From the NCBI RefSeq assembly GCF_000688295.1, contig NZ_JHZF01000013.1, forward strand, positions 372,001 through 436,000: 64,000 bases of DNA. The letters run 5' to 3'. Source of the stretch: Pseudooceanicola nanhaiensis DSM 18065. GTDB taxonomy: Bacteria; Pseudomonadota; Alphaproteobacteria; Rhodobacterales; Rhodobacteraceae. The translations under genes and the position numbers were made by a program. Shown piece after piece: positions 38,225 to 64,000 of this stretch (position 1 is its first letter; the number at the start of each line of letters is the position of its first letter). Under the pieces are notes generated by a model, which did not search any database, had not been told where the DNA came from, and saw nothing but the letters and a program-made list of their open reading frames with translations.

Positions 38225-40369
38225 TCAGTTGATCATCGTCAAGGCGCCCTTGACGGTCATGATGGCATCCGCGCTCACGGTGGTCAGCAGGCCCTTCACG
38301 TTCATGTTGGTGGTGGCCTTCACGTCCACCATCAGCGACTCGATGGTGATCTGCGTGGGCGTCATGGTGATCTTGCTCATCCCGCATTTCAGCTCGATCT
38401 TCTGCAGCGCCTCGATCGTCGTCGCCCCGACCGAGGTCTTGAGGTCGTAGTTCCCCAGCTTCACCGTGTGCTTCTCGTTGCCCATGTCGACGCTGCGGGT
38501 CACGTTGCCCATCTTGATCGTCTGCCGGTAATTGCCCTGCTTGATCGTCTGCGTGGTGTTGCCGGTGATCGTCTGGGTCGCCTTGCCCTCGATCGTCTCG
38601 GTGTGGTCCTTCTTGATCGACACCTTCTGGTTGCCCGCCTTCACCGTGAAGATGTGGTCCCCGGTGTTCAGCGTCTCGGTCTTGTGCCGGTGGATCGTCT
38701 GGGTCAGGTCGCCCTTGTCCTTCTTCTCGAGACCGATGGTGATCTCGGCATTGTTCTTGATCGTCTGCTTGTAATCCTTCTCGGACTGCATCCGGACGAA
38801 TTCGGCGTCCTTCTTGTCCTCGAAGATCAGCTCGTTGAAGGTCGAGGCCGAGCCCCCCTTGCTCGAGCGGGTGACGATCCCGCTCTGGGTCATGTTGGCG
38901 GGCAGCGGATAGGGCGGCCTGGTGTCGCCGTTGTAGAGCATGCCGGTGCAGATCGGGCGGTCGGGATCGCCCTCCTCGAACTGGATCGCGACCTCCTGCC
39001 CGATGCGGGGAATGTGGATCATGCCCCAGTTCTTCCCGGTCCAGGGCATCACGCAGCGCACCCAGCACGAGGTCTTCTCGTCCATGTTGCCCTGCCGGTC
39101 CCAGTGGAACTGCACCTTGATGCGGCCGTATTCGTCGGTGTGGATCTCCTCGCCCGAGGGGCCGGTAACCATGGCGGTCTGCAGCCCCGGTATCTCGGGC
39201 CAGGGGGTGGTCTGCAGGGCGCGGAACGGCTCCTTCTTGGGCATCACCTCGAAGACGCAGCGATAGGTGTCGCGGTTGTCGGGCCCGAAGGCACCGGCAT
39301 TGGTCTTGGCGCCGCCGCGGAACGGAGAGGTCGTCGTCTCGCGATCCTCGTAGTCGCTCTCGATCTGCAGCAGGTGCACGGCGTTCAGGATCAGGAAGTC
39401 GTTCGGCGCGACCTTGCCCACCCGGTCGTGGCCCTTCAGCCGGAAGGTGCGTCCGACGCGCAGGCCCCGGACGTTGCCGATCCCGTGGGACTTGAGGTGG
39501 CGCACCGCCTCGGCCTGCATCCGCACCCGCGAGCGCGCGTTGCCGTGGGCCGAGGTCGTGTAGCGGCCGGGATGGTCATAGACCTCGAAATCCTTGTAGG
39601 AATGCTGGCCCTTCGGGATCGCCCGCGTCGTCTTGAGCTCGGATCGGGGCGTCTCGAAGAAGTAATCGTCCAGCGTCACCTTGCCCGAGGTGAGATGCGT
39701 CGCCTCGGTCCATTCGAAGATGTGGTCCTTGCGCCGGCGATACTCGGGCTCGGCGAAGTGGAACTCGATCTCGGCGTTCCCGGGAACCGGCGTATGGGCC
39801 GAGACGTCATCGCAGAGGACCAGCTTCTCCTTGTCGCCGACCTGCTGGAAGTAATAGTAGATCCCCTCCTCCTCCATCAGGCGGCTGATGAAGTCGAAAT
39901 CGGTCTCGCGGTATTGCACGCAATAGGTCCGCGTCAGGTAGCTGCCCTGCACCTTGTCGCTCAGATCCGCCGAGAAGCCGTGATCGCTCAGCACGCTCTT
40001 GATGATCTCGTGCGCGGTCTTCTCCTGGTAGATGCGGCTGTTCCGGGTCCGGGTCAGCATCCAGAGCCACGGCCGGACCTCGGCGACGATATGCAGCATC
40101 CCCTGGTAGAGCCCGACATATTCCGCCGAGATGCAGAGGCCCGAGAAGCCCTGCGCCTCGTCCTCGCCGTCCACCTCCAGCGTGATCCGGGTGCCGAGGA
40201 CCTTCTGCAGGTCAAGCTGCATGTCCGAGGACAGGAACTCGATCCGGGTCTCGGTCAGGCGGCTCAGCCCCTCCTCGACGCGGGCGTTCTTGAGCGAGAC
40301 GACGCTCTCCGGCAGGACGGATTTCATCCGGACCGAGCGGTTCTTGAAGGCGAGGTTCTCTTCGGGCAT
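38225..40369 (-). CDS. vgrG: T6SS spike protein VgrG (TssI)
   Basis: A 714-residue VgrG: the gp27-like domain (YCVQYRETDFDFISRLMEEE, GIYYYF), the gp5 OB-fold (DEYGRIKVQFHWDRQG, CWVRCVMPWTGKNWGMIHIP) and a C-terminal triple-stranded beta-helix built from short T-x-T-I/G-N repeats (about 590-680). There is no additional effector domain after the needle. The 28-base gap upstream separates it from the 95-residue unknown. Confidence 0.95.
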   Translation of the reverse strand: MPEENLAFKNRSVRMKSVLPESVVSLKNARVEEGLSRLTETRIEFLSSDMQLDLQKVLGTRITLEVDGEDEAQGFSGLCISAEYVGLYQGMLHIVAEVRPWLWMLTRTRNSRIYQEKTAHEIIKSVLSDHGFSADLSDKVQGSYLTRTYCVQYRETDFDFISRLMEEEGIYYYFQQVGDKEKLVLCDDVSAHTPVPGNAEIEFHFAEPEYRRRKDHIFEWTEATHLTSGKVTLDDYFFETPRSELKTTRAIPKGQHSYKDFEVYDHPGRYTTSAHGNARSRVRMQAEAVRHLKSHGIGNVRGLRVGRTFRLKGHDRVGKVAPNDFLILNAVHLLQIESDYEDRETTTSPFRGGAKTNAGAFGPDNRDTYRCVFEVMPKKEPFRALQTTPWPEIPGLQTAMVTGPSGEEIHTDEYGRIKVQFHWDRQGNMDEKTSCWVRCVMPWTGKNWGMIHIPRIGQEVAIQFEEGDPDRPICTGMLYNGDTRPPYPLPANMTQSGIVTRSSKGGSASTFNELIFEDKKDAEFVRMQSEKDYKQTIKNNAEITIGLEKKDKGDLTQTIHRHKTETLNTGDHIFTVKAGNQKVSIKKDHTETIEGKATQTITGNTTQTIKQGNYRQTIKMGNVTRSVDMGNEKHTVKLGNYDLKTSVGATTIEALQKIELKCGMSKITMTPTQITIESLMVDVKATTNMNVKGLLTTVSADAIMTVKGALTMIN

Positions 40370-40397: not shown

Positions 40398-40685
40398 TCA
40401 GGCGCCGGTTTCCACGAGTGTGCCCGTGTCGCGCAGGCGGGCCACGATATCGGGGTGAAGGCTCCAGAACCTCGAGACGTTGACGGACTGGCCGAGGCTC
40501 ATCCGCGCGTCGAACTGGCTGTGGAAATGCAGGCATTGAACGGGTGTCGGGTAGACCCCGTCGGTCAGCATCAGCTGGTTCAGGTATTCCTCGCCCCGGT
40601 AGACGAAGTAGTGCTTGCCGTCCTCCAGCCCGATCAGCGTGATCGCGAAGGTCTCGTCGGGGCCGGCGTCGGTTTCGGTCGTCAT
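40398..40685 (-). CDS. Conserved-looking small protein between vgrG and the sheath fusion
   Basis: A 95-residue soluble protein of no family I know, with an acidic N-terminus, an aromatic-rich middle (GKHYFVYRGEEYLNQLML) and CLHFHSQFDARMS. The start overlaps the stop of the sheath-fusion gene by one base and vgrG follows 28 bases later, so it belongs to the T6SS transcript. By size and place it could be a spike adaptor or a small chaperone. Confidence 0.6.
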   Translation of the reverse strand: MTTETDAGPDETFAITLIGLEDGKHYFVYRGEEYLNQLMLTDGVYPTPVQCLHFHSQFDARMSLGQSVNVSRFWSLHPDIVARLRDTGTLVETGA

Positions 40686-43600
40686 CAGAGGTCCTCCAGC
40701 AATGCGGCCAGCTCCGGGTCCATCTCGTCCTCGGGGCCGGCATCGTCGGTCGTGTCGTCGTCGAACGCCGCCAGGATGTCGTCGAGATCGGCGTCCTGTG
40801 CGGCGGTGTCCTCCGCGGGCGGCGCGGCGACATCGAGCTGCACCTCCGCCTGCGGTTCGGGGGCCGGCCGCGGCGGCGGCGCCTCGCCCGACCAGGGCCC
40901 GGCGATCGTCTCGCCGCCAAGCGCGCGGAACGAGGCCAGACGCACCTCGTTGCGGCCCTTGAGCGACACCACCGGCATGATACCGCGGCCGAGGCTCTGC
41001 TGCACCGGGTCGCTGGTCAGGTTCCGCTCGGTACAGGGCAGCGCGACCTGATCGCCGTGCCGGTCGGTGACGTAGTGGAACGGCATGTCGCCCAGCGACA
41101 TCACGCTGCCGGGCTCCATCGCGCGGCCGTCCTTCTTGTGCGCCGCGGCAAGCAGGATCGCCACCAGCACCACGGGATTCCCCCAGAGCATACCCGAAAG
41201 CCCCTCGCGCGGGGTGAATTCCTCGAAGTCGAAGGCGCTGCAGGGGTCGGATTTCCGGCCATATGGCAGCCGCAGGAGGAATCGCGGCGAGGCGATGCCG
41301 ATGTAATTCGCCTCGGGCATGGCGCGGAGCGCGTCCCAGGCCTGCGCCACCAGCGGGTGCCGGTCCTCCTTCGCGGTCTCGAGGTAGGCGGGCGTCAGCG
41401 CGGTGAAGAAGGGCGCGTCGACATGGGCCGCCACCTGCGCCAGCCGGGCCAGAAGCTCGGCATGGGGCGGGGTCTCCTCGAAGGTGTAGAGCCCGAACAG
41501 GGCCGAGAACCCGCCCGCCCCGGTCTCGGGGTCGATCACGCCCGTCAGCAGCCGGAAGAGCCCGCTGTCCGAGAGATCCTCCTGCGCCGCGAGGTCGGCG
41601 GCGATCTCGGCCGCGGAGACGTCGTAGAGCACGATCTCGAGATCGCTGTCGGTCTCGATCCGCCGCGCCAGCATGTCGAGCGACCGCCAGAGCGCCTCGA
41701 CTGCCTGGAAATCGGGGTGATGCAGGACCAGCCGCATCGCCGAACTCAGCGCCTCGTCCACCGCCCCCTGCATCGCCGGGACCCCGGCATCGGGCGCCTT
41801 GACGACATGCGGCCCGACGATCCGCGCGATCAGCGCATCGGCCGGGCCCTGCGCCTCGTCCCTCGGGGTGGTGTCGCCGATCAGCCGCTGGAAATCGCTC
41901 AGCCGCATCCCCGCCGGGACCGAGGTGCTGGCCGAGCGCTTCGGCAGCCGCACCGGCGTGTCATGCGCCGCACCCCAGGCGGCAAGCCGCTCGGCGGCCT
42001 TCGCGGCCATCGACCCGGTGCCGAGCTGCTGGCGCAGGCCCGAGAGCGCGTCGAAGATCGCAACCTTGTCGTAAAGCTCGTCCGGGTGCAGATCGTCCAG
42101 CTCGGCCAGCCTGACGTCGATCCCCGCGCCATCCTTCCCGATCGGCAGGGTGAGCGTCGTGGAGAACCCCTCGATCACCTCGTCGATCGTGTCCACGTCG
42201 AGCGGGATCGCCCGCCGCGCCGCGAGGTCGTCCCCGATCGCGCAGAGCCCCCGCCCCGCACGCCCGGTGAAATCGCCGAAGACCGCCATCCGGAACCGCC
42301 GCCGGTCGAGGCCCGCCCGGTCCGGCCGCGCGGCCGATATGGTGCCGAAGGGCGATTGCACCGGTGCCGGATTTGCGGGCACCGCTTCGCCGTCGCCTGA
42401 CCCGACCTCCGCCGGCATCGCGCCGAGCCCGTCTTCCGCCGCGGGCGCCGTGCCCTTGTCGTCGTCGAGATCGGCAAGCAATGCGTCCAAGTCGTCGAGC
42501 CCGTCACCCGTCGCCCCGGGCGCTCCCGGCGCAGGCGCGGCGCCCTCGTCCGCGCCACCGCCAAGATCCGACAGAAGCGCGTCGAGATCGTCCTCGCCCG
42601 CCTCCGGCTCGGCCTCCTCCGCGCCGCCCAGCTCGGCGAGCATGGCGTCGAGGTCACCGACCCCGTCCTCGTCAACCGCTGCGGTCTCGGTCCCGGCCTC
42701 CGCCGAGATGTCCTCCGCATCGCCCCCAAGGTCGGACAGGAGTGCGTCGGGACCGCCCGCGTCCGCGTCAGCCGCTCCCGCGTCACCCCCGGAAGCCGCC
42801 CCGGCGTTCGCGCCCTCGAGGTCCGACAGGAGCGCGTCGAGGTCGCCTTCCGCCTCCGGTTCGGCAGCGTCCGCGTCCGAGGCATCTTCATCCGCGTCAC
42901 CCTCCAGATCGGAGAGCAGCGCATCGAGATCGCCCTCATCCCCTTCTGGTCCGGGTGCAGAGCTCTCCGCCTCAACGTCGCCCAGATCGGACAGGAGGGC
43001 ATCCAGATCGTCCAGTCCGCCCGCGTCACCCCCGGAAGGCTCCCCGTCGTCCGCGCCCTCGAGGTCCGACAGAAGCGCGTCGAGGTCGTCTCCCTCCGCC
43101 TCGGGCGCGGCAGCGTTGGTCTCCGCCGCGTCGCCCTCCGGATCCGAGAGCAGGGCATCAAGATCGTCCTCACCCGCCGCGGGCTCGGGCGCAGCGTTCT
43201 CCGCCTGATCCGCGTCGTCGTCCAGACCGGAGAGGAGCGCGTTCAGCGCCTCCGCGTCCGCCTCTCCCGCGCCGCCCCCGGACAGCGCCGCACCCTCCGC
43301 CGAGCCGCCGTCGAGGTCGGACAGGAGTGCGTCGAGATCATCCGCGGCGGCGTCCGTTTCACCAGCCGCGTGTTCCGCATCGTCCTCGCCGTCGCCCGGA
43401 TCGGAGGGGTCTGCGTCGAAACCTTCGGTCTCGCCGCCAGCCTCGGCGCCCGTGCCGCTTTCCAGATCGGAGAGCAGCGCGTCGAGGTCGTCCTCCTCCG
43501 CCTCCGGCGTTGCCTCGATCCTGTCGAGGATCCCGGCCATGTCGGGACCGGCCTCCTCCGTCGCCGCCGGGCGGGCGGCGAGGTCGGACAGGGTGGCGGA

Positions 43601-44926
43601 GCTGTCGTCCTCCTGGGCCACCTCCGCCATCCGCTCGATGCCGGAGAGCACATCCGCCGTGTCGTCTGTCTCCTCGGGCGCTTCGGCGGTCGTCCGGCGC
43701 AAGCCATCCAGCGCGTCACCGGGCGCGTCCTCCCTTGCCTCCGGCGCCGGCGCGATGCTGCCGAGGATCCCGGACACGTCGGGACCGGCGTCCTCCGGCG
43801 GCACCATGCGAGAGGAGAGGTCGGACAAGGTGGCCGCACCGTCCTCCGCCGAGGTATCGTCGCTCACCCGCGCGATGCCCGAGAGCACCTCCGCCGTATC
43901 CACCCCCGGCGGTTCGTCGGACACCCGCTCGATCCCGGAGAGTATGTCTGCCGTGCCATCTTCCACCGGGTCGTCGCTCACCCGCGCGATGCCGGAGAGC
44001 ACGTCGTCGCTTTCGTCCCCCGGCGCCTCCTCCGTCACCCGTTCGAGGCCCGAGAGCACCTCCGCCGTGTCGTCCGCCGCCTCGGGCCTGTCCGGCTGCG
44101 TGGCGCGCAGGGCGTCCAGTGTCCCGGCCGAGCCGTCCTCCGCGTCCGGCTCGCCGGGCGCGGCGGCGCGGAGCGCGGAGAGTGCGGCGCCGGTGTCGTC
44201 GGGCGCCGGGGTCTCCTCGGGGCGGGCGGCGCGCAGGGCGTTCAGGGCGGTCTCGGCGCTGTCGTCGGGGGCGCGCTCTTCGGCGGGGGCGATGCCGGAG
44301 AGGATGTCCTCCACCCCCGGGCCGGGCGTCGCGCCGGCGGGCACCGTGGCGGCAAGGGCGGAGAGGGTGGCGTCGGTCTCGTCCGCGGCGGGCGTGTCTG
44401 GCAGGCGGTCGCGCAGGCCGGCAAGCGCGGCCTCCGTGTCGGGGGAGGCGCCCTCCGGGCCGCCGAGCGCGCGCAGGATCTCGGGCGAGGCGAGCAGCGT
44501 CTCGATCAGGGTTTCCGCGCCCGCCTTGCCGTCCATGTAGGCCAGCAGGTCGGTGAGCTGCCGCCGCGCTTCCAGCAGCGGGGCGAGCGCGCCGATCTTC
44601 CGGGCGATCGCCTCGGGGCTGAAATCCGCCATCTTCTCGAAGGTCAGATCGACCTCGAGCGAGCCCTCCCCGGTCAGGGTGTTGGGCACCGAGAACTGCG
44701 CGCGCGGCGCCATCGCCTTCATCCGGTCGTCGAAAGTGTCGGCGTCGATCGCAAGGAACTGGCGGTCGCCGACCGCGGGCACCTCGGCCTTGCCCGAGAG
44801 GTCGGCCATGACGCCCATGACGAAGGGCAGCTGCACCTTCTTCTCGGCCCCGTAGAGCTCCACGTCGTATTCGATCTGGACCCGGGGGGCGCGGTTGCGC
44901 GAGACGAATTTCTGGCTGTCGCTCAT
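40685..44926 (-). CDS. TssB / acidic repeat array / TssB-like / truncated TssC-like sheath fusion
   Basis: A 1413-residue fusion in the T6SS train. Residues 1-155 are a TssB almost identical in pattern to the separate tssB (shared RNRAPRVQIEYDVELYGAEK and VPNTLTGEG). Residues 160-850 are a continuous acidic array of about 26 short units. Residues about 858-1010 resemble a second small-sheath domain (FRMAVFGDFTGRAGRG), and 1025-1345 a TssC-like part (LHHPDFQAVEALWRSLDML; IASPRFLLRLPYGRKSDP) that stops before the TssC C-terminal third. An acidic tail (LDDILAAFDD, ELAALLEDL) closes it. No frameshift is needed. The start overlaps the channel gene stop (ATGA). It could be a sheath cap, a regulator competing with TssBC, or a length-control scaffold; all are inference. 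Confidence 0.88.
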   Translation of the reverse strand: MSDSQKFVSRNRAPRVQIEYDVELYGAEKKVQLPFVMGVMADLSGKAEVPAVGDRQFLAIDADTFDDRMKAMAPRAQFSVPNTLTGEGSLEVDLTFEKMADFSPEAIARKIGALAPLLEARRQLTDLLAYMDGKAGAETLIETLLASPEILRALGGPEGASPDTEAALAGLRDRLPDTPAADETDATLSALAATVPAGATPGPGVEDILSGIAPAEERAPDDSAETALNALRAARPEETPAPDDTGAALSALRAAAPGEPDAEDGSAGTLDALRATQPDRPEAADDTAEVLSGLERVTEEAPGDESDDVLSGIARVSDDPVEDGTADILSGIERVSDEPPGVDTAEVLSGIARVSDDTSAEDGAATLSDLSSRMVPPEDAGPDVSGILGSIAPAPEAREDAPGDALDGLRRTTAEAPEETDDTADVLSGIERMAEVAQEDDSSATLSDLAARPAATEEAGPDMAGILDRIEATPEAEEDDLDALLSDLESGTGAEAGGETEGFDADPSDPGDGEDDAEHAAGETDAAADDLDALLSDLDGGSAEGAALSGGGAGEADAEALNALLSGLDDDADQAENAAPEPAAGEDDLDALLSDPEGDAAETNAAAPEAEGDDLDALLSDLEGADDGEPSGGDAGGLDDLDALLSDLGDVEAESSAPGPEGDEGDLDALLSDLEGDADEDASDADAAEPEAEGDLDALLSDLEGANAGAASGGDAGAADADAGGPDALLSDLGGDAEDISAEAGTETAAVDEDGVGDLDAMLAELGGAEEAEPEAGEDDLDALLSDLGGGADEGAAPAPGAPGATGDGLDDLDALLADLDDDKGTAPAAEDGLGAMPAEVGSGDGEAVPANPAPVQSPFGTISAARPDRAGLDRRRFRMAVFGDFTGRAGRGLCAIGDDLAARRAIPLDVDTIDEVIEGFSTTLTLPIGKDGAGIDVRLAELDDLHPDELYDKVAIFDALSGLRQQLGTGSMAAKAAERLAAWGAAHDTPVRLPKRSASTSVPAGMRLSDFQRLIGDTTPRDEAQGPADALIARIVGPHVVKAPDAGVPAMQGAVDEALSSAMRLVLHHPDFQAVEALWRSLDMLARRIETDSDLEIVLYDVSAAEIAADLAAQEDLSDSGLFRLLTGVIDPETGAGGFSALFGLYTFEETPPHAELLARLAQVAAHVDAPFFTALTPAYLETAKEDRHPLVAQAWDALRAMPEANYIGIASPRFLLRLPYGRKSDPCSAFDFEEFTPREGLSGMLWGNPVVLVAILLAAAHKKDGRAMEPGSVMSLGDMPFHYVTDRHGDQVALPCTERNLTSDPVQQSLGRGIMPVVSLKGRNEVRLASFRALGGETIAGPWSGEAPPPRPAPEPQAEVQLDVAAPPAEDTAAQDADLDDILAAFDDDTTDDAGPEDEMDPELAALLEDL
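42377..44449 (-). repeat. Acidic tandem array coding for about 26 short hydrophobic-core units
   Basis: Units near residues 205-472 follow the plan [VI]LSGI[EA]RVSDD with period 19-20. Units near 478-815 follow DDLDALLSDLEG with spacings of 18-50 residues, about twelve copies including variants (LNALLSGL, LDAMLAEL, LDALLADL). Between them lie Asp/Glu/Ala/Pro/Gly spacers. This is translated sequence, not a CRISPR or intergenic repeat. Confidence 0.85.
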
Positions 44927-45828
44927 GTCGGCCCCGCCCGGTTGGCGCGCAGCTCCTCGCGGAGGGCGCGGATTTCTTCCCTGAGGTCGAGCACGTGGGA
45001 ATCGACCTGATCGGTCTCGGAGCGCACCAGAAGCTGGAGCTTCTCGAACTCGGCCTCGGTGTCGTCCTCCACCGCGGACTGCATGGTGTTGACGAGAAGG
45101 CCGATGAACAGGTTCAGGACCGAGAAGGCGGTGATCACGATGAAGGGCACGAAGAAGGCCCAGGCCATCGGGTAGACCTCCATCACCGGGCGGACGATGC
45201 CCATCGACCAGCTTTCCAGCGTCATGATCTGGAACAGCGAATACATCGAGCGCCCGAGGGTGCCGAACCATGCGTCGAAGGTGTCGCCGTACATCAGCGT
45301 CGCCATCACGGCGAAGACGTAATAGACGATCGAGAGCATCAGGATCACCGCGCCCATGCCGGGCAGCGCGTCGAGCAGCGCCTGCACCACGGCACGCATC
45401 TGCGGCACCACCGACAGCAGCCGCAGCGCCCGGATCACCCGCAGCCCGCGCAGCGCGGAGAGCGAGCCCGAGGCCGGGAACAGGCTGATGCCGACGATGC
45501 AGAGATCGAAGATGTTCCAGGGGTTGCGGAAGAAGCCGACGAGGCCGAAGGCGAAGAACTTCAGCGCGATCTCGAACACGAAGATCGTCAGCACCACCCT
45601 GTCGACGATGCGGAGGAAGCCGCCGATCTCGGCCTGGATGGTGTCCGAGGTGCTCAGCCCGAGTGTGACGGCGTTGAAGATGATGATGCCGAGGATCGTG
45701 TTCCGAACGACGCTCAGCTCGAGCCAGGCGCGAATCCGGCCGCGCAGGGTGCGGCTGTCGCCCCGCTCGGCCGGCGGGGTCGCCCGCGCGTCGGCCTGTG
45801 CATTCCCGTTACGATCCACGCTCACCAT
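44923..45828 (-). CDS. NavBac-type voltage-gated sodium channel inside the T6SS operon
   Basis: A 301-residue six-helix channel with S4 RGLRVIRALRLL (127-138), filter TLESWSM (203-209) and a strong C-terminal coiled coil (SHVLDLREEIRALREELRAN). Closely related in pattern to the channel at 132-905 but with a longer N-terminus and tail. It lies between an unknown helical protein (three-base gap) and the sheath fusion (ATGA overlap), so it is made as part of the T6SS transcript. Channel identity is firm. Why a sodium channel sits in a secretion operon is unknown: immunity, sensing of membrane potential, or accidental linkage are all open. Confidence 0.9.
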   Translation of the reverse strand: MVSVDRNGNAQADARATPPAERGDSRTLRGRIRAWLELSVVRNTILGIIIFNAVTLGLSTSDTIQAEIGGFLRIVDRVVLTIFVFEIALKFFAFGLVGFFRNPWNIFDLCIVGISLFPASGSLSALRGLRVIRALRLLSVVPQMRAVVQALLDALPGMGAVILMLSIVYYVFAVMATLMYGDTFDAWFGTLGRSMYSLFQIMTLESWSMGIVRPVMEVYPMAWAFFVPFIVITAFSVLNLFIGLLVNTMQSAVEDDTEAEFEKLQLLVRSETDQVDSHVLDLREEIRALREELRANRAGPT

Positions 45829-45831
45829 GTC

Positions 45832-46845
45832 TCAGGCCTTCACCTGCTGAGAGGTCTTGTTGAATGCCTTGCCGATCGCGTCCATGTGCCGGGCGGCCTC
45901 GGCGAGGGTCTTGTCCTTGTCCTTGTGGTCCTTCTCGAACTGCTGGGCGGCGGTCTTCACCTCGGCCTCCGAGGCCTTGCCGTCCGACACCAGGCGGTCC
46001 ACGTCGTCCAGCGACTTGCCGAAATCGTCGACCGCGGCCGAGATCCTGTTCAGCGCGGATTTCATCGGGCCGTTGGCCGACAGCTTCTTGCCGATCTCCT
46101 GCAGGGCGGGGGCGGCGTTCTTGTCCCTCGCCATCTTGTCGCCCTTGAAGAGCAGGTACTTGGCGACGTTCTGAACCTCTTTCGCGCTGCTCGCGAAGGC
46201 TTTCTGGCAGACGGCCATGCTCGATTTGGCGTCCTTGTAGGCCGCGGCCGCCTCTTTCTCGTCGGCGCCCTTCAGATCGCGCGCCAGCGCCTTCAGCGTG
46301 TCCGCAACATCCTCGGTGAGGTTCGAGAACATCCGGTCGTCGACCTGCGCGAACTTCTTCAGCGCCTCCTTGCCGGCGGCCAGCGCCTTCTTGTTGTCGC
46401 CCTTGTCCGCCTCGACCTCGTCCAGCGCGGTCGAGACCTTGGCCTCGATCGCCTTGGTGATCTTCTTGTGCAGCTTGACGACGTCGCCCTCGACCTTCTC
46501 GAACTCCGACTTGAAATCGTCCGAGATCGACTTGGCGTTCTTGTCGAGCTTCGCGCGCTTCTGGTCCTTCGGCAGGGCCTTCACGATCTTCTTCTCGAAC
46601 CCCGCCATCGCGGTCGCGAAGAGCGCAAGCTCGTAACGGGCGACGGCATAGGCCCCGTCCTCCAGCGTCTTGCGGTTCCACTTGCGCGGATCCAGCTCGA
46701 GCGTGCGCTTCACGTCGATCGTCTGGTCGAGCTTCTGCAGCGCGGGGCTGGCCGCGAACCACGCGGGCGGCTCCTTGCCCTTCGCCTCGCCGTAGAGGTT
46801 GATCTTCGTGTCCACGGTGATCTTCTTCTTTCCGACTTCAGCCAT
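45832..46845 (-). CDS. Helical coiled-coil protein of unknown function, T6SS operon
   Basis: A 337-residue Lys/Ala/Asp-rich protein with no signal peptide. The first 60 residues look beta-containing (KKITVDTKINLYGEAKG); the rest is long amphipathic helix (KSEFEKVEGDVVKLHKKITK, KEVQNVAKYLLFKGDKMA). ATG 46845 follows GGGAGGA. It forms a pair with the next upstream gene and is followed by the channel gene after three bases. I recognise no family. Size and all-helical nature allow a cargo, a pore-former subunit or a structural protein. Confidence 0.7.
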   Translation of the reverse strand: MAEVGKKKITVDTKINLYGEAKGKEPPAWFAASPALQKLDQTIDVKRTLELDPRKWNRKTLEDGAYAVARYELALFATAMAGFEKKIVKALPKDQKRAKLDKNAKSISDDFKSEFEKVEGDVVKLHKKITKAIEAKVSTALDEVEADKGDNKKALAAGKEALKKFAQVDDRMFSNLTEDVADTLKALARDLKGADEKEAAAAYKDAKSSMAVCQKAFASSAKEVQNVAKYLLFKGDKMARDKNAAPALQEIGKKLSANGPMKSALNRISAAVDDFGKSLDDVDRLVSDGKASEAEVKTAAQQFEKDHKDKDKTLAEAARHMDAIGKAFNKTSQQVKA

Positions 46846-46901
46846 GGCGTCCTCCCTCTGGCTGCGGACCGGGCCTGGCGGGCCCGGCACTGATGGGTCG
46901 A

Positions 46902-48134
46902 TCAGGCCGCCACCTTGGCGATCTCATCCAGCGTGCCCTTGATCGTCTTGAGCGCCGAGCCGAGATCCTTGGCGTTGGTCAGGATCGTGGTCTTGTCCAG
47001 CGCCTGGATCTTCTGGATCGTGGTGCGGTCGTCGATCTCGAGCCCGTTGGCCTTCATCAGGTCCTGCATCTCGTCCAGGTATTTCTCGCGCGTGTCGAGC
47101 TTGGCGGCCATCTCCGACACCGTGCGCTTGACCGCCATGCACTCGGCGCCGACCCTGACGCCTTCCTTCAGGGTCCTGGCCGATTTCATCGCGGCCTGGA
47201 GCTTGCCCGCCTGCACCGAGATGGCGTCGGTCCTGTGCCGCGTCCTGGTGGTGTGCTCACGATACTTCTTCCGCGCCTCCTCGGCGTCCTTGAGGCCGGA
47301 CTTTATCTTCTTCACCGCGAAATCCAGCACGTCCCGGGCCATGGCCTTCTTGTCCTTGCCCTTGGTGACCTCTTCGCCGGCGGTCTTGATCTTGTTCAGG
47401 ATGCCGGCCAGCGCCTCCTTCGGCTTCTTCACGTCGATGCCGGACAGGTCGGTGATGTTCTGCCGTGCGGCGGCCTGCTGGATGGCGGTGCCGCGCAGGG
47501 TGATGAAGCTCTGGATCGCGGCGTTCAGATCCTTGCGCAGCTTCTCCTCGGTCTTCAGCTGCTGCGCGAGGTCCGAGCCGAGGTCGTAGAGCGTCTTGGC
47601 GATGGCGACGTAGGAGGTGACGTCGGCCCCCGCCGTTGCGACCAGCTTGGCCACGTTGCCGGCGACCGAGATCACGCCGAGCGTCCATTTGACCCCGGTG
47701 CGGACGCGCGCCTCCTTCAGGTTCTTGTCGCCCTGCGCCTCTTTCTTCAGCCGCGCTTCGACGGCCTTCTGGGCCGCCCCCTCGGCCGAGGCGAGCGCGT
47801 TCTTGATCGACTGGTTGACCCCCTGGGTGAGGCTCTCGGCCGCCTTCAGGTTCGCCGGCGTCGGCTGCGCCATCAGGTCGGCGATCTTCCTGTCCAGCCG
47901 CTCGGCTTCGGAGGCGATGATCTTCTCGTAGGCCTCCAGCTCGTCCCGCGCGGCCGTCTCGAGCCGCTTGAACAGCGACTCGGGGATCGGGGGCGCCTTG
48001 AACGTGCCCTTGGTCGTCACCTCGATCGTGACGTCCACCCGGTACTTGGGAATCTCGAGGAACTGCGCCTTGGGCTTCCTGCGGACAAGGTCCACGACGT
48101 AGAACTTGTGCTGTTCGGTATTCGTCTTGGCCAT
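46902..48134 (-). CDS. Helical protein with central hydrophobic segment, T6SS operon, unknown function
   Basis: A 410-residue protein. The N-terminal 50 residues are beta-like (YRVDVTIEVTTKGTFKAPPI). A long helix (RDELEAYEKIIASEAERLDR) precedes a glycine/alanine-rich hydrophobic stretch (about 148-185, TLGVISVAGNVAKLVATAGA and on), then more charged helix. The hydrophobic piece inside long helices resembles the arrangement in alpha-helical pore-forming toxins, but I cannot assign a family. ATG 48134 has GAGGAGG upstream. It starts 28 bases after clpV and precedes the 337-residue partner. Confidence 0.7.
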   Translation of the reverse strand: MAKTNTEQHKFYVVDLVRRKPKAQFLEIPKYRVDVTIEVTTKGTFKAPPIPESLFKRLETAARDELEAYEKIIASEAERLDRKIADLMAQPTPANLKAAESLTQGVNQSIKNALASAEGAAQKAVEARLKKEAQGDKNLKEARVRTGVKWTLGVISVAGNVAKLVATAGADVTSYVAIAKTLYDLGSDLAQQLKTEEKLRKDLNAAIQSFITLRGTAIQQAAARQNITDLSGIDVKKPKEALAGILNKIKTAGEEVTKGKDKKAMARDVLDFAVKKIKSGLKDAEEARKKYREHTTRTRHRTDAISVQAGKLQAAMKSARTLKEGVRVGAECMAVKRTVSEMAAKLDTREKYLDEMQDLMKANGLEIDDRTTIQKIQALDKTTILTNAKDLGSALKTIKGTLDEIAKVAA

Positions 48135-48162
48135 CTTCAAGGTCCTCCTCTCGGCAGGGCGC

Positions 48163-50865
48163 TCATTCGAACGCGTAGGTGAATTCGCCGTCCTCGACGT
48201 CCAGGGCGACTTTTGTCACGGCGCTGCCCTCCATCATCCGGCGCAGGAACTCGGCCGAGATGTCGGGCAGCATGGTGTTGGTGACGATGGCGTCGATCAT
48301 CCGCCCGCCGCTCTCAAGTTCCTGGCAGCGGTCGACGATTTCCTGCACCACCGCGTCGGAATAGGCGAAGGGCACGCCATGCGCCTCTTCCACCCGTTTC
48401 TTGATCCGGTTCAGCTGAAGCTCGGTGATCTTGCCGATCATGTCCGGGCTCAGCGGGTAATAGGGGATCGCCACCAGCCGCCCGAGCAGCGCGGGCGGGA
48501 AGACCTGCAGGAGCGGCTCACGCAGCGCCTTTGCCATGCCCTCGGGGTCCGGCATCAGATCCGGGTCCGAGCAGAGGTCCATGATCAGGTCCGTGCCCGC
48601 GTTCGAGGTCAGCAGGATCAGCGTGTTCTTGAAGTCGATGCTGCGGCCCTCGCCGTCCTCCATGACCCCCTTGTCGAAGACCTGGAAGAAGATCTCGTGC
48701 ACGTCCGGATGCGCCTTCTCGACCTCGTCGAGCAGCACGACGGAATAGGGCTTGCGCCGCACCGCCTCGGTCAGCACCCCGCCCTCGCCATAGCCGACAT
48801 AGCCCGGAGGGGCCCCCTTGAGCGAGCTGACGGTATGCGCCTCCTGGTATTCGCTCATGTTGATGGTGATGAGGTTCTGTTCGCCGCCATAGAGCACCTC
48901 GGCCAGCGCCAGCGCGGTCTCGGTCTTGCCGACGCCCGAGGTGCCGGCCAGCAGGAAGACCCCGATGGGTTTCGAGGGGTTGTCGAGCCCCGCGCGCGAG
49001 GTCTGGATGCGTTTCGCGATGGCCTTCATCGCGTGGTCCTGCCCGATCACCCGCTTCGCCAGCAGGGTCTCGAGGTTCAGGACCGTCTCGATCTCGTCCT
49101 TCACCATCCGGCCCACGGGGATGCCGGTCCAGTCGCCGACGACGCTCGCCACCGCCTGGTGATCGACGATCGGCATGATCAGCGGGCTGTCGCCCTGCGC
49201 CGCGACCAGCTCGGCATTCTTCGCCCTGAGCTGCGCCATCAGCTCGGCGCGGTCGGGCGCGGCGAGCGGATCGGCCGGATCGCCCTCGGCCGGGGCGGCC
49301 TCGACCGGCTGGGCCCCCTCGCGCAGCCTGGCGCGCAGCTCGATGATCTCGGAAACCAGCGCCTTCTCGGTGTCCCAGCGGGCGGTCAGCTCCTCCAGCC
49401 GTGCTTCCTCGGCCGTCTTCGCCTGGGTCACCGTCGCCCGGCGCTCCGCCACGTCGAAACCCGCCGATTCGTCACGGCCGATGATCTCGAGCTCGGTCGC
49501 CAGCGCCTCGATCCGGCGCTGGCTGTCGTCGACCTCGGCCGGCACGGCGTGCTGGCTGACCGCGACCCGCGCGCAGGCGGTGTCGAGCAGCGAGACCGAC
49601 TTGTCCGGCAATTGCCGCGCCGGGATGTAGCGGGCCGACAGCGTGACGGCGGCCTCGATCCCCTCGTCGAGGATCTGCACCTTGTGGTGCTTTTCCAGCA
49701 TCGAGGCGATGCCCCGCATCATCAGGACCGCCTTCGGGATGTCCGGCTCCTCGACATGGACCACCTGGAAGCGGCGGGTCAGCGCCGGGTCCTTCTCGAT
49801 GTACTTCTTGTACTCGGCCCAGGTCGTCGCGCCGATGGTGCGGAGCGTGCCGCGCGCCAGCGCCGGTTTCAGCAGGTTCGCCGCGTCACCGGTCCCGGCC
49901 GCGCCGCCCGCACCGACCAGCGTGTGGGTCTCGTCCACGAACATCACGATCGGCGTGGTGGAGCCCTGCACCTCGTCGATCACCTGCCGCAGCCGGTTCT
50001 CGAACTCGCCCTTCATCGAGGCGCCCGCCTGCAGCAGCCCCACGTCGAGCACCAGCAGCCGCACGTCCTTCAGCGCCGGGGGCACGTCGCCCCGCGCGAT
50101 CCTGAGCGCGAAGCCCTCGACCACGGCGGTCTTGCCCACGCCGGCCTCGCCGGTGAGGATCGGGTTGTTCTGACGCCGCCGCATCAGCACGTCGACGATC
50201 TGGCGGATTTCCTCGTCCCGGCCCACGATAGGGTCGATCTCGCCGTTGCGCGCCTGCTCGGTCAGGTCGGTGCAGAATTGCTGCAGCGCCTCTTCCTTGC
50301 CGGTTCCCTTCGGCGCCCGCGCGCCCGAGGCTTCGCCCGGCTCGACCCCGCCGCCGGTGTTCGACCCGTCCTGCGGCCGCATCGCGTCCTCGGGCGAACC
50401 GTCGGTGATGGCGTGGAACTCGTCGGCCAGGTCGTCCGGCCGGATGGAAGCCAGCGTCGGAGAGATGCCCTGCAGGATGTTCTTCAGGTTCGGCGTCTCC
50501 AGCATCCCGAGCAGCAGGTGCCCGGTCCGGACCTGGTTCGAGGAATAGAGAAGGGAGCCCCAGACCCAGGCCCGCTCCATCGCGTCCTCGATATGCGAGG
50601 ACAGGTCGCTGACCGAGGAGGCGCCGCGCGGCAGGGCGTCCAGGGCCGAGGTGATCTCGGTCGCGATGCGTCCGGCGTCGAGGTCGAAATGGCCGATGAT
50701 CCGGTGCAGGTCGCTGTCCTGGTTGTTCAGGATCTGGTGGATCCAGTGGACGATCTCGACATAGGGGTTGCCCCGCATCTTGCAGAAGACCGTCGCCCCC
50801 TCGATCGCCTTGTAGCCAAGGGGGTTCAGCTTGCCGAACAATGCCACGCGGCTGATTTCAGTCAT
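48163..50865 (-). CDS. clpV: T6SS AAA+ ATPase ClpV (TssH)
   Basis: The 900-residue Clp/Hsp100 ATPase that disassembles the contracted TssBC sheath. An N-terminal Clp domain (NPYVEIVHWIHQIL typical of ClpV) precedes AAA-1 with Walker A GEAGVGKT (239-246) and VDETHTLVGAGG, a middle coiled coil, and AAA-2 with GTSGVGKTETALALAE and LLDEVEKAHPDVHE. The start lies within the end of tssG (eight-base overlap). Confidence 0.96.
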   Translation of the reverse strand: MTEISRVALFGKLNPLGYKAIEGATVFCKMRGNPYVEIVHWIHQILNNQDSDLHRIIGHFDLDAGRIATEITSALDALPRGASSVSDLSSHIEDAMERAWVWGSLLYSSNQVRTGHLLLGMLETPNLKNILQGISPTLASIRPDDLADEFHAITDGSPEDAMRPQDGSNTGGGVEPGEASGARAPKGTGKEEALQQFCTDLTEQARNGEIDPIVGRDEEIRQIVDVLMRRRQNNPILTGEAGVGKTAVVEGFALRIARGDVPPALKDVRLLVLDVGLLQAGASMKGEFENRLRQVIDEVQGSTTPIVMFVDETHTLVGAGGAAGTGDAANLLKPALARGTLRTIGATTWAEYKKYIEKDPALTRRFQVVHVEEPDIPKAVLMMRGIASMLEKHHKVQILDEGIEAAVTLSARYIPARQLPDKSVSLLDTACARVAVSQHAVPAEVDDSQRRIEALATELEIIGRDESAGFDVAERRATVTQAKTAEEARLEELTARWDTEKALVSEIIELRARLREGAQPVEAAPAEGDPADPLAAPDRAELMAQLRAKNAELVAAQGDSPLIMPIVDHQAVASVVGDWTGIPVGRMVKDEIETVLNLETLLAKRVIGQDHAMKAIAKRIQTSRAGLDNPSKPIGVFLLAGTSGVGKTETALALAEVLYGGEQNLITINMSEYQEAHTVSSLKGAPPGYVGYGEGGVLTEAVRRKPYSVVLLDEVEKAHPDVHEIFFQVFDKGVMEDGEGRSIDFKNTLILLTSNAGTDLIMDLCSDPDLMPDPEGMAKALREPLLQVFPPALLGRLVAIPYYPLSPDMIGKITELQLNRIKKRVEEAHGVPFAYSDAVVQEIVDRCQELESGGRMIDAIVTNTMLPDISAEFLRRMMEGSAVTKVALDVEDGEFTYAFE

Positions 50866-53761: not shown

Positions 53762-54259
53762 TCAGGCGATCCTTTCCAGTTCGATCTCTCCGGTCGTCAC
53801 GTCCACCTGCGACCGCAGATAGAGCTCGAGCGGAATGGGCTGCGCCCACATGTCGGCGCGGATGTCGAAGGTGACGAGCGTCTCGCGGTTGCTGTCGCCC
53901 TTCCGCAGCAGCACGTTCACCGAGCCGGGGTGAATCCGCGGCTCGAACACGCGGATCGCCTCGGCGATGGACTTGCGGATCAGGCCGGCGCGTTCGGCGG
54001 TGGAATATTCGCCCGCGACCTCGTGGATCCCGAAGTTCAGGACCGAGCGGCTGGCATGGGGATAGCGGTCCGCGTCGATCATCGAGCTGTTGTCGGAGGT
54101 GTTCAGCAGCCAGGACAGGTCGCGCTGGATGATCTCGCGCAGGCGGCGCAGGTCGATGACCCGGTCGTCGCGCCGTTCGGCCGGCACGCCCGGATCGCTG
54201 TCCGTGAGCCGGTCGAGCAGCGACGGCTGGAGCCGTTCGGTGATCGTCCGGTCAGACAT
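53762..54259 (-). CDS. tssE: T6SS baseplate protein TssE (gp25-like)
   Basis: A 165-residue gp25/lysozyme-like baseplate protein: LQPSLLDRLTD at the start, DLSWLLNTSDN, SVLNFGIHEVAG, EAIRVFEPRI and a VTFDIRADMW strand. It nucleates sheath assembly. Its start overlaps the tagJ stop by eight bases. Confidence 0.93.
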   Translation of the reverse strand: MSDRTITERLQPSLLDRLTDSDPGVPAERRDDRVIDLRRLREIIQRDLSWLLNTSDNSSMIDADRYPHASRSVLNFGIHEVAGEYSTAERAGLIRKSIAEAIRVFEPRIHPGSVNVLLRKGDSNRETLVTFDIRADMWAQPIPLELYLRSQVDVTTGEIELERIA

Positions 54260-55055
54260 CGCCGCCCCCGGTGTCCATCTTCAGCAGCCGGACGTCCATC
54301 AGCGGCAGGTCGCCCAGATCGGTCGTCCAGAGCCGCTGGCCGATGCCCGCGTAGGTCTCCGCACCGAGGTCGTTCCACCGGGTGACGCGCGCCAGCTTCT
54401 CGGCGTCACTGCCGGTCTCGGCGGTGCCCGGATAGCGGGTCGGGATCAGCGCCACGATGTCGCCGCCGTTGGCCAGCCGGATGCTGGCGGGCGTCCAGAC
54501 GGCGTCGCGCAGGTCGGCGGGGGGCTCGAAGCTCGCCTCGGCTATGGCGCTGAAGGGCATCCAGAAATAGCGCCCGTTCACGATCACCTCGAGCAGCGGC
54601 CCCAGCCGCATGTCGGCGTCGGCGATCCATGCGAAGGCCTGACCGTCGACCTGACCCGAGACCGCCGGGGCGGCATCGAAGGCGCGGTCGCGGATCTCGG
54701 CGGCACGGTCGGGCTGGCCGGCGGCCTGCGCCTTGAGCGCCTCGATCATCAGGGCGGTCCATTCCTGCGGTTCGCCGAAGATCAGCGGGTCCTTCTCGCC
54801 CGCGAAGACCTTCTCGCGGTAGACCTCGCAGACGATCCCCTCGCGATAGGTCTGGGCCATCGGCGTGGCCGCCTTGTCGAGCTCGGCCGACACCTTGAGC
54901 TGGGCGATCGCCCGTTTCCATTCGCCGCGGACGCAGAGCAGCTGGAACAGGAAAATCCGCAGCGCCGCGTTCGAGGCATCCGCTCGCACCGCGTCCTGCA
55001 GGGCGGCGAGGGCGCCGTCCAGGTCTCCGGCCTTCAGCAAGTCTTCGGCAGTCAA
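54252..55055 (-). CDS. tagJ: T6SS accessory protein TagJ (ImpE)
   Basis: A 267-residue ImpE/TagJ protein: an N-terminal TPR-like helical part (AEDLLKAGDLDGALAALQDA, FLFQLLCVRGEWKRA) and a C-terminal globular part with AFAWIADADMRLGPLLEVI and YFWMPFSAI. TagJ binds the N-terminal helix of TssB in some systems and assists ClpV recycling. This system offers it two TssB N-termini, the free one and the fused one. Confidence 0.9.
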   Translation of the reverse strand: MTAEDLLKAGDLDGALAALQDAVRADASNAALRIFLFQLLCVRGEWKRAIAQLKVSAELDKAATPMAQTYREGIVCEVYREKVFAGEKDPLIFGEPQEWTALMIEALKAQAAGQPDRAAEIRDRAFDAAPAVSGQVDGQAFAWIADADMRLGPLLEVIVNGRYFWMPFSAIAEASFEPPADLRDAVWTPASIRLANGGDIVALIPTRYPGTAETGSDAEKLARVTRWNDLGAETYAGIGQRLWTTDLGDLPLMDVRLLKMDTGGGDV

Positions 55056-55704: not shown

Positions 55705-57201
55705 TCAGGCGCCCTTCTCGGTCGGAAGCTTGGAAACGAGGCGGAGGGACACGGACAGTCCCTCGAGCTGGTAATGCGGCCGGAGATAGAATTTCGACGT
55801 GTAATACCCCGGGTTGCCCTCGACCTCCTCGACGACGACCTGCGCCGCGGCCAGCGGGCGCCGCGCCTTGACGTCCTCGGGCGAGGTGGCGGAGTTCAGA
55901 TCGACGTAATTGCTGATCCACTCCTGCAGCCAGCGTTCCATGTCGTCCCGGCTCTTGTAGGAGCCCACCTTGTCGCGGACGATGCACTTCAGGTAATGCG
56001 CGAAACGGCAGGTCGCGAAGAGATAGGGCAGCCGCGCCGCGAGGTTGGCGTTCGCGGTCGCGTCCTCATCGTCATATTCGGCAGGCTTGTGCAGCGACTG
56101 GGCGCCGATGAAGGCCGCGATGTCGGAGTTCTTCCGGTGGATCAGCGGCATCATCCCGTTCTTGGCCAGCTCCGCCTCGCGACGGTCCGAGATGGCGATC
56201 TCGGTCGGGCATTTCTGGTCCACGCCGCCGTCGTCGGTCGGGAAGGTGTGCGAAGGCAGGTTGGCCACCGCGCCGCCGCTCTCGATCCCGCGGATCCGCG
56301 AGCACCAGCCGTATTCCTTGAACGACCGGTTGATGTTCACCGCCATGCCGTAGGCCGCGTTCACCCAGCTGTACTTCTCGCTGTCGGCGCCGTCGGTGTC
56401 TTCCTCGAAGGCGAAGGCCTCGACCGGGTCGGTCTTGGAGCCATAGGGCAGCCGGCCCAGGAACCGCGGCATGGCGAGGCCCACGTACTTGGAATCCTCG
56501 CTCTCGCGCAGCGACCGCCAGGCGGCGTATTCCGGCGTCTGGAAGATCTTGGTCAGGTCACGCGGGTTGGCGAGCTCGGACCAGCTGTCCATCTGGAACA
56601 GGTTCGGGCTGGCGCCGGTGATCAGCGGCGCATGGGCCGCGGCGGCGATCTTGGACATCTCGCCCAGAAGCTCGACGTCGGGCGGGGAATGGTCGAAGTG
56701 GTAATCCGCCACCAGCGCGCCGTAGGGCTCGCCGCCGAACTGGCCGAATTCCTCTTCGTAGACCTTCTTGAAGATCGGCGACTGGTCCCACGCGGTCCCC
56801 TTGAACTTGCGCAGGGTCTTGTGCATGTCCTTCTTCGAGATGTTCATCACCCGGACCTTGAGCATCTCGTCGGTCTCGGTGTTGTTCACCAGGTAATGCA
56901 GGCCGCGCCACGCGCTTTCGAGCTGCTGGAAGTCGGCGTGGTGCAGGATCAGGTTCACCTGCTCGGTCAGCTTCTTGTCGATCTCGGCCACGATGCTCTC
57001 GATCGAGCGCAGCGCGTCGTCCGAGATCAGGTCGGTATTCGCCAGCGCCTGTTCCGCCAGCGTCTTGACCGCCTGTTCGACCGCCGTCTTGGCCTGGTCG
57101 GACTTCGGGCGGAATTCCTTCTTCAGCAGGTTCTCGAAATCGGAGGACCCGAATGCGGTGGCACCGGCGCCGGCTGCTGCTTCGGTTTCAGTCTCGGCCA
57201 T
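55705..57201 (-). CDS. tssC: T6SS contractile sheath large subunit TssC
   Basis: A full-length 498-residue TssC: LILHHADFQQLESAWRGLHY, FDHSPPDVELLGEMSKIAAA, GLAMPRFLGRLPYG and the C-terminal YTSKFYLRPHYQLEGLSVSL. It polymerises with TssB around the Hcp tube. It is the complete counterpart of the truncated TssC-like part in the 1413-residue fusion. It lies three bases after tssB. Confidence 0.96.
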   Translation of the reverse strand: MAETETEAAAGAGATAFGSSDFENLLKKEFRPKSDQAKTAVEQAVKTLAEQALANTDLISDDALRSIESIVAEIDKKLTEQVNLILHHADFQQLESAWRGLHYLVNNTETDEMLKVRVMNISKKDMHKTLRKFKGTAWDQSPIFKKVYEEEFGQFGGEPYGALVADYHFDHSPPDVELLGEMSKIAAAAHAPLITGASPNLFQMDSWSELANPRDLTKIFQTPEYAAWRSLRESEDSKYVGLAMPRFLGRLPYGSKTDPVEAFAFEEDTDGADSEKYSWVNAAYGMAVNINRSFKEYGWCSRIRGIESGGAVANLPSHTFPTDDGGVDQKCPTEIAISDRREAELAKNGMMPLIHRKNSDIAAFIGAQSLHKPAEYDDEDATANANLAARLPYLFATCRFAHYLKCIVRDKVGSYKSRDDMERWLQEWISNYVDLNSATSPEDVKARRPLAAAQVVVEEVEGNPGYYTSKFYLRPHYQLEGLSVSLRLVSKLPTEKGA

Positions 57202-57204
57202 GTC

Positions 57205-57720
57205 TCACTCCTGCTCTTGGGTGTCGGCTTTGGGGGCAGGCTGCGCCGCGAGGGTCTTCAGCAGCGCGGGGTCCTGGATGATCTTGCCGATCAGGTCCTC
57301 GGCGCCCGATTTGCCATCCATGTAGGTCATCAGGTTGGACAGCTGCGTCCGCGCCTCGAGGAGCTCCTTCAGCGGCTCGACCTTGCGGGCGATCGCGGCG
57401 GGGCTGAAATCGTCCATCGACTCGAAGGTGATATCGACCGCCATGTTGCCCTCGCCGGTCAGCGTGTTGGGCACGGTGAAGGCGGCGCGCGGCTTCATCG
57501 ACTTCATGCGTTCGTCGAAATTGTCGACGTCGATCTCGAGGAACTTGCGGTCCGCGACGGCGGGCTGGGGCGCTTCGGACTTGCCGGCCAGGTCGGCCAT
57601 GACGCCCATCACGAAGGGCAGCTGGACCTTCTTCTCGGCGCCGTAGAGCTCCACATCATATTCGATCTGAACGCGGGGCGCCCGGTTTCTGGCAATGAAC
57701 TTCTGTGAACTTCCAGACAT
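57205..57720 (-). CDS. tssB: T6SS contractile sheath small subunit TssB
   Basis: A 171-residue TssB: RNRAPRVQIEYDVELYGAEK near the start, LPFVMGVMADLAG, VPNTLTGEGNMAVDITFESM and LLEARTQLSNLMTYMDGK. ATG 57720 has AAGGAG nine bases upstream, which excludes the in-frame TTG six bases earlier. The N-terminal 150 residues of the fusion at 40685-44926 are a close second copy. Confidence 0.95.
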   Translation of the reverse strand: MSGSSQKFIARNRAPRVQIEYDVELYGAEKKVQLPFVMGVMADLAGKSEAPQPAVADRKFLEIDVDNFDERMKSMKPRAAFTVPNTLTGEGNMAVDITFESMDDFSPAAIARKVEPLKELLEARTQLSNLMTYMDGKSGAEDLIGKIIQDPALLKTLAAQPAPKADTQEQE

Positions 57721-57782
57721 AAACAATGACTCCTTCGCACCTGTCGCAGTTCGCTTTCAGCCACGCGCGGTGGCGGTTGATC

Positions 57783-59432: not shown

Positions 59433-60065
59433 ATGCCCGGCGCCCTTCTCGAGACCGCGGGAAGCGGCGGGCCGATCATCATCATCCTCGCGATCCTGTC
59501 GCTGCTCTCGATCGCGTTGATCGTCGGCAAGGGCCTGTCGCTGGCCCGCGTCCGGTCGGGCCGGGCCCGGCGGGACGACGCGCTGGTGACATGGGCGAAG
59601 GGCGACCGCGAGGCGGCATCGGCGGCGGTCGCGCAGGGCGGCGCCCCGGCCGACCGCGTTCTCGCCTACGCGATGGAGGCGACCCGCAGGAAGATGCCGC
59701 GCAAGCCGCTCGAGGCCGAGCTGATGCGCCGCGGCAATGCCGAGGTGGAGGCGATGTCCCGCCATCTCCGCCTGCTCGAGCTGATCGCCATGGTCTCCCC
59801 GCTGCTCGGCCTGCTTGGCACGGTGCTGGGGATGATCCAGTCGTTCCAGCAGCTCGAGATGGCGCAGGGCGCGGCCAATGCCTCGGTGCTGGCGGGCGGC
59901 ATCTGGCAGGCGCTGCTGACCACCGCCGCGGGGCTGATCGTCGCGATCCCGGCGGCGATCGGGGCCGGGCTCCTCACCACCCGCGTGGACGGCGCGGCCC
60001 ATGACATCGAAACCGCCGTCGGGCAGTTCTTTCTGCTGGAGGACACCGGAAGCACCACGCCATGA
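59433..60065 (+). CDS. exbB: MotA/TolQ/ExbB proton channel family protein
   Basis: A 210-residue three-helix protein of the ExbB/TolQ family: an N-terminal helix (IIIILAILSLLSIALIVG), then the paired helices with LIAMVSPLLGLLGTVLGMIQ and GIWQALLTTAAGLIVAIPAA, the proton-channel signatures. It works with the two ExbD proteins that follow. The ribosome site overlaps the stop of the preceding gene. Confidence 0.93.
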   Translation: MPGALLETAGSGGPIIIILAILSLLSIALIVGKGLSLARVRSGRARRDDALVTWAKGDREAASAAVAQGGAPADRVLAYAMEATRRKMPRKPLEAELMRRGNAEVEAMSRHLRLLELIAMVSPLLGLLGTVLGMIQSFQQLEMAQGAANASVLAGGIWQALLTTAAGLIVAIPAAIGAGLLTTRVDGAAHDIETAVGQFFLLEDTGSTTP

Positions 60066-62480: not shown

Positions 62481-62489
62481 GCCCGGGCC

Positions 62490-63938: not shown

Positions 63939-64000
63939 TTCCCTCGTAACCCCCGGCGATACAACGTCAGCGCGCGCGCCGGACCGGAAGATCATATAAC

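Follow-up and report, generated by a model that had tools for sequence, protein, structure and literature searches.

Introduction

The closest described relative of the gene studied here is TssCL, published in 2022 from roseobacters in Leisingera sp. ANG-M7 (PMC9515649). We have analysed a stretch of 64,000 nucleotides from Pseudooceanicola nanhaiensis DSM 18065 (NZ_JHZF01000013.1, positions 372,001 to 436,000), termed the window and used as the basis of all coordinates below, which contains a gene of this type within a type VI secretion system (T6SS) cluster. The fusion has the same two VipA domains and one VipB domain as reported for the Leisingera protein, the separate tssB and tssC genes are likewise kept, and the cluster likewise has impE (tagJ), PAAR and FHA genes. 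A preliminary description of this DNA had taken the architecture to be previously unknown; in fact the fusion is already described in kind, and an open-licence literature search recognised no other published account of it. What is new is the missing handshake domain of its C-terminal unit, a family of stand-alone units that extends beyond Alphaproteobacteria, a conserved and amplified motif, and a selectively conserved strand in the fused TssB. We tentatively favour, at a level short of probable, an interpretation in which TssCL is an accessory protomer of the sheath that does not polymerise, is anchored to the sheath through its TssB domain and bears multivalent docking motifs.

The fusion protein and its C-terminal unit

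The gene is one uninterrupted frame of 1413 codons, as first described, and its start is overlapped by the stop codon of the upstream ion-channel gene (ATGA). Its parts are as follows.

40685..44926, minus strand: TssCL-type fusion gene, with ATG start and 1413 codons plus stop (1413 aa)
44465..44902, minus strand: N-terminal TssB (VipA) domain, residues 9-154, by Pfam; 69% identical to TssB; includes the handshake/TagJ strand PRVQIEYDVELY
42329..44458, minus strand: acidic arm, residues 157-866; 198 D/E, 20 K/R and nine strict L..LL..[LIVMF] motifs
43857..44079, minus strand: strongest DNA-level tandem repeat of the fusion gene, period 57/114
42023..42295, minus strand: TssB' part, residues 878-968; VipA profile positions 28-120 of 155, N-terminal strand missing; weak Pfam match
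40931..41764, minus strand: TssC' part, residues 1055-1332; Pfam VipB
40763..40786, minus strand: tail motif M1 (residues 1381-1388), LDDILAAF; helical in the model, with low to middling confidence
40688..40711, minus strand: C-terminal motif M2 (residues 1406-1413), LAALLEDL; helical in the model, with middling confidence

The N-terminal part is indeed a TssB, for which the term "near-copy" used initially is generous, the identity to the separate TssB being 69% over 155 residues. Against TIGR03358, the family of functional TssB, the whole protein scores 189 bits in two stretches, the better being 5-154, and so exceeds the cut-off of 97.25. The acidic stretch had been put at about 690 residues; by our boundaries it has 710, of which 28% are D/E and 3% K/R. 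The second small-sheath-like domain was recognised by Pfam as a second VipA stretch, 26.5% identical to the separate TssB over 98 residues. The TssC' part is 29.7% identical to residues 66-373 of the 498-residue TssC; the protein is thus truncated as described, the missing piece being the last quarter of TssC and not the last third. No VipB_2 domain was found in the fusion by Pfam at E values up to 0.1, and the score of 128.1 bits against TIGR03355, the equivalog of functional TssC, lies below the curated cut-off of 271.5.

The preliminary description had named fold prediction as the check on its sheath assignment, which an unrelated fold would have refuted. The assignment survives this check: the fold predicted for the C-terminal unit resembles that of TssC, and the model can be aligned to single-chain sheath proteins along both the TssB' and the TssC' parts. 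Comparison with a viral fold library yielded three matches with E values of 0.001 or less, of which the best two are named tail connector and tail sheath. An Rfam search gave no match. As judged from sequence and predicted structure, the C-terminal unit is a single-chain TssB'-TssC' with the sheath fold that lacks the handshake part. Cap, tether and competitor had been put forward as possible roles; a non-polymerising, tethered protomer best fits this anatomy, because the unit has neither the handshake donor strands nor the acceptor domain.

The anatomy could also suit a different position. Special sheath paralogues, Afp4 and PVC4, form the first baseplate ring in extracellular injection systems, and the TssB'-TssC' unit might similarly surround TssE as the first ring at the baseplate, since the gp25-like inner part is missing from the unit and TssE, for its part, is a gp25-like protein. 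We consider this baseplate-side role unlikely.

The preliminary description had mentioned ImpD of Rhizobium, which like TssC40 is a TssC-like protein beside TssC. TssCL and ImpD/TssC40 are both second VipB proteins in alphaproteobacterial T6SSs, and Agrobacterium TssC40 is reported not to be redundant with TssC41 (PMC3702570). ImpD of Rhizobium johnstonii 3841, however, aligns to the window TssC through its C-terminal part (34% identity over 441 residues), and it matches the profile of our C-terminal unit at 84.5 bits over the TssC' part only, compared with 353.6 bits for the homologue in Eleftheria terrae. A protein of this type should be TssC-like over its full length and without a TssB part, which does not describe the fusion. 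The extent of the alignments thus leads us to reject orthology with ImpD, and a role as a TssC40-type second TssC is highly improbable.

The fused TssB domain

Fused and separate TssBs were compared in 22 sources that have both: 20 fetched clusters, the window and a Leisingera stretch (L142). The separate TssBs are on average 90% identical to each other and the fused ones 77%; a fused TssB is 80% identical to its own separate TssB and 78% to the others. The strand PRVQIEYDVELY departs from this general divergence, with a conservation of 0.99 in the 22 fused copies and 1.0 in the separate TssBs. Beyond it, conservation in the fused copies is 0.93 over the next 19 columns, and then 0.82, 0.86, 0.79 and 0.72 towards the C-terminus, compared with 0.90 to 0.97 in the separate proteins. 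The segment is the handshake donor, and it overlaps the TagJ contact reported for HsiB1. Either handshake or TagJ use could thus explain why the strand is conserved.

In a tree of the 22 fused and 22 separate TssBs the fused sequences are split up, requiring four changes that are forced by starred branches, and three of them pair with their own separate TssB. A single clade of fused TssBs was not rejected by the approximately unbiased test (p 0.065), and the bootstrap of this tree had not settled. Gene conversion would give the same pattern.

Motifs of the arm and tail

The strict motif occurs nine times in the window arm compared with 0.12 in shuffled sequences, and 362 times in 58 arms compared with a mean of 15.6 in shuffles, with 0 to 18 per arm. 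At the C-terminus a relaxed L..LL..L motif (M2) ends all 81 tails, 78 of which match the strict C-terminal pattern. M1, resembling LDDLLAGF, precedes M2 in 79 of the 81 by pattern; in the remaining two, Met replaces the first Leu. By eye, three stand-alone forms (L138, L120 and L082) have several M1 copies in their tails.

The acidic LD.LL form is found 551 times in the fusion and unit proteins of the loci and not once in 15 other recognised T6SS gene groups of the same loci, a reference set without tssA, tssF and tssM. A strict form, L[DESAN].LL..[LIVMF], is absent from all 19 other T6SS proteins of the window. We considered a general T6SS docking tag and set it aside: the strict and acidic forms are unmatched in the other T6SS proteins compared, and the looser form is widespread.

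These features bear on the possibility that TssCL is a soluble competitor, poisoning growing ends through its TssB or its C-terminal unit and limiting the length or number of sheaths with no binding partners. Having no handshake strands, the unit should be unable to propagate a polymer, and a fused TssB only 69% identical to the window TssB might well be a poor substitute. The near-invariant handshake strand and the conserved, amplified motifs nevertheless suggest specific binding over simple poisoning, and we judge competition of this kind distinctly improbable.

Occurrence of the fusion and the unit

A scan of named genomes found 113 loci, of which 80 were analysed. These comprise 57 complete fused frames, ten complete frames without TssB, one long frame with a partial TssB match (L072) and 12 frames cut by contig ends; counts leave out L072 and the twelve cut frames. 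With the window there are thus 58 complete fused copies, and 60 C-terminal units are conserved. In the genus, one of 21 other genomes (G002) has the fusion gene, with a C-terminal unit 79% identical, a patchy distribution. The preliminary description had allowed for an assembly join of several genes. Given the 58 complete copies, the 60 conserved units and the congeneric copy, an assembly artefact or decayed gene, for which no supporting evidence was seen, is excluded in practice, and its probability is negligible.

In the family, 45 genomes matched at 1e-40, and five were dropped before counting: four as TssC-like (G082, G169, G207 and G270) and one as intermediate (G415; 184 bits, profile positions 83-484, 498-residue frame). 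With a cut at 500 bits, the C-terminal unit is present in 40 of 394 genomes, and in all 40 the TssC shares 78% or more identity with that of the window. The unit occurs in 34 of the 36 genomes whose TssC is 84% or more identical and in 6 of 20 at 78-83%; it occurs in none of three at 70-77% and none of 43 below 70%. Presence thus tracks TssC identity, and within the family the unit is confined to one T6SS branch. A 657-residue frame (L148) was taken as a long frame and not as a fusion.

Stand-alone forms and evolution

The unit lacks TssB in ten named loci (L076, L078, L082, L107, L119, L120, L121, L122, L126 and L138), where the gene precedes vgrG as it does in the fused loci. Outside Alphaproteobacteria, the betaproteobacterium Eleftheria terrae (L140) has a homologue of the C-terminal unit that is 41% identical and is a stand-alone protein without TssB, not a fusion. 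Its 784 kb plasmid also holds tssC; the T6SS cluster there has four hcp genes, with RebB R-body genes nearby.

Wider searches covered 398 genomes of the phylum and 385 of the class, both including the window's own, with three or four candidates scored per genome. The only unit-like matches were three distant stand-alone relatives without the tail (L143, L144 and L154), each in a genome of its own where tssC and clpV are present too. For two of them, L143 (G758) and L154 (G921), a comparison of the surrounding 24-26 kb with 15 T6SS proteins from the window gave no match, tssC and clpV lying elsewhere in the genome.

In a quick tree of the C-terminal units, with long outgroup branches and an uncertain root, the stand-alone forms branch off at the base. 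Accounting for the fused state on this tree takes four changes, and branches with good support force three of these. With that root, the fused state was probably gained once and then lost in some lineages.

A separate observation concerns complete TssB-TssC fusions, with VipA, VipB and VipB_2 in one chain, each the single match in its genome; the two genomes are alphaproteobacterial and measure 1.9 and 0.6 Mb (L028:1467-3392, plus strand, 641 aa; L029:7024-9015, minus strand, 663 aa).

The surrounding T6SS cluster

The cluster contains tssA, B and C, hcp, tagJ, tssE, F and G, clpV, the channel gene, the fusion, vgrG, PAAR, FHA, tssK, L and M, and two genes that Pfam does not convincingly assign to a family. 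The standard tssB and tssC had been correctly noted. The genes that concern us here are the following.

38225..40369, minus strand: VgrG, downstream neighbour of the fusion
44923..45828, minus strand: related to the voltage-gated sodium channels of bacteria; 5hvx is the best match in the PDB (E 4.5e-80), with NavAb entries matching too
45832-46890 and 46902-48140, minus strand: the two genes of no convincing Pfam family, which separate clpV from the channel
48163..50865, minus strand: ClpV with Arg6 and Asp87 (charged-groove class)
54252..55055, minus strand: TagJ/ImpE
55705..57201, minus strand: separate TssC, VipB and VipB_2, with the N-terminal segment DFENLL at 21-26
57205..57726, minus strand: separate TssB

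Judged by marker genes only (impE, FHA and the Arg6/Asp87 class of ClpV), this is an H1-like (group three) T6SS. The first recognised gene downstream of the fusion or unit is vgrG in all 80 named loci. Upstream sequence is readable over more than 2.5 kb in 68 loci; 67 of them have clpV there, Eleftheria being the exception, and 53 have the sodium-channel relative. Homologues of the two genes between clpV and the channel were recognised in some loci only. Beside the T6SS, window positions 60062-63995 hold a pair of ExbD-like genes together with genes for a DUF4384 protein and for a caspase-like peptidase; the Leisingera stretch carries a MotA/TolQ/ExbB gene and a caspase family gene at opposite ends. 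Outside the T6SS genes, a 1686-residue frame (17923-22983, minus strand) has no Pfam match.

The constancy of clpV upstream of the fusion or unit raises the possibility that the arm recruits ClpV, its motifs mimicking the TssC N-terminal helix, gathering ClpV and speeding sheath disassembly. The ClpV-binding TssC helix is given as LLDEII in the account of PMC4239648. The LDxLL motif resembles LLDEIM and LLDEII of other TssCs, as well as the DFENLL segment of the window TssC, which has the same position as EFASLL in HsiC1. In addition, the fused TssB retains most residues reported as TagJ contacts in HsiB1, and P. aeruginosa TagJ is reported to bind ClpV1. The groove itself, however, argues the other way. 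LLDEII is found only with uncharged grooves in the comparison given by Forster et al., and LLDEII-type helix binding would call for an uncharged groove, which the window system does not have: its ClpV shares Arg6 and Asp87 with P. aeruginosa ClpV1, whose groove is blocked. Among the ClpV N-termini of the loci Arg6 is present in 82 of 83 and Asp87 in 79 of 83 (some genomes being counted twice), indicating a blocked, charged groove. Moreover, LxxLL helices are generic, and the Eleftheria plasmid encodes the same tail motifs with no match to clpV on the whole 784 kb record (the chromosome was not searched). From these sequences the classical ClpV groove is disfavoured as the motif site, and recruitment of ClpV appears rather improbable; another ClpV site, or TagJ, may be the partner. 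If the partner is conserved, the genes common to the window cluster and Eleftheria (tssA, B, C, E, F, G, K, hcp and vgrG) form a narrower set of candidates.

Discussion

Under the favoured interpretation of TssCL as a tethered, non-polymerising protomer, the fused TssB would pair with ordinary TssC and join the sheath in low numbers. The TssB'-TssC' unit would neither give nor take handshake strands and would sit at the end or flank of the sheath, so that polymerisation would stop at a protomer built from it. The LxxLLxxL motifs would bind a partner, several at once, keeping it near the sheath, and TssCL would then regulate the assembly, length or turnover of the sheath instead of building it.

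Several observations weigh against this. Incorporation of TssCL into the sheath is a step that we infer. Among the genomes whose TssC reaches 70% identity, 59 in all, 19 lack the unit (at most four candidates being scored per genome), and such T6SSs can therefore work without it. Stand-alone forms exist without TssB, so that the unit can dispense with the tether; the fused TssB is absent from these apparently older forms, and on the tree it was probably lost again in some lineages. Six of the 58 arms have no strict motif, and a looser form occurs in 16 of the 19 other T6SS proteins of the window, so that only the strict acidic form is distinctive.

A more extended scenario is possible, if on balance doubtful. 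The TssB'-TssC' unit might be an old, separate component of some T6SSs in Pseudomonadota, a single-chain sheath protomer that has lost its interlocking part and ends or seeds sheath polymers. In Rhodobacterales it would later have been fused to TssB and given up to 18 strict helical docking motifs, the result being a multivalent arm in control of sheath length or firing cycles. TssCL offers a defined object for the question of how T6SS sheaths start, stop and reach their size, and its domain boundaries allow clean deletions.

An accessory protein derived from a structural one has a parallel by analogy only in TvpC (EMBO J 2026, PMC13373197), reported as a VgrG-like protein without a Gp27 domain that serves T6SS assembly. 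The Tvp accessory proteins were considered as kin of TssCL and set aside, no kinship being seen in what that paper reports of TvpC, which resembles VgrG. In PMC9515649, the account of TssCL does not mention arm motifs, a missing handshake domain or stand-alone forms, and reports no TssCL outside Alphaproteobacteria. The identities to TssB, TssB and TssC given there for Leisingera are 86.2, 26.3 and 30.9%, compared with 69, 26.5 and 29.7% in the window, the N-terminal TssB thus being more diverged here. The C-terminal unit shares its predicted fold with the TssC of the canonical TssB-TssC (VipA-VipB) protomer, and differs from that protomer in being a single chain that lacks the handshake part and carries tail motifs.
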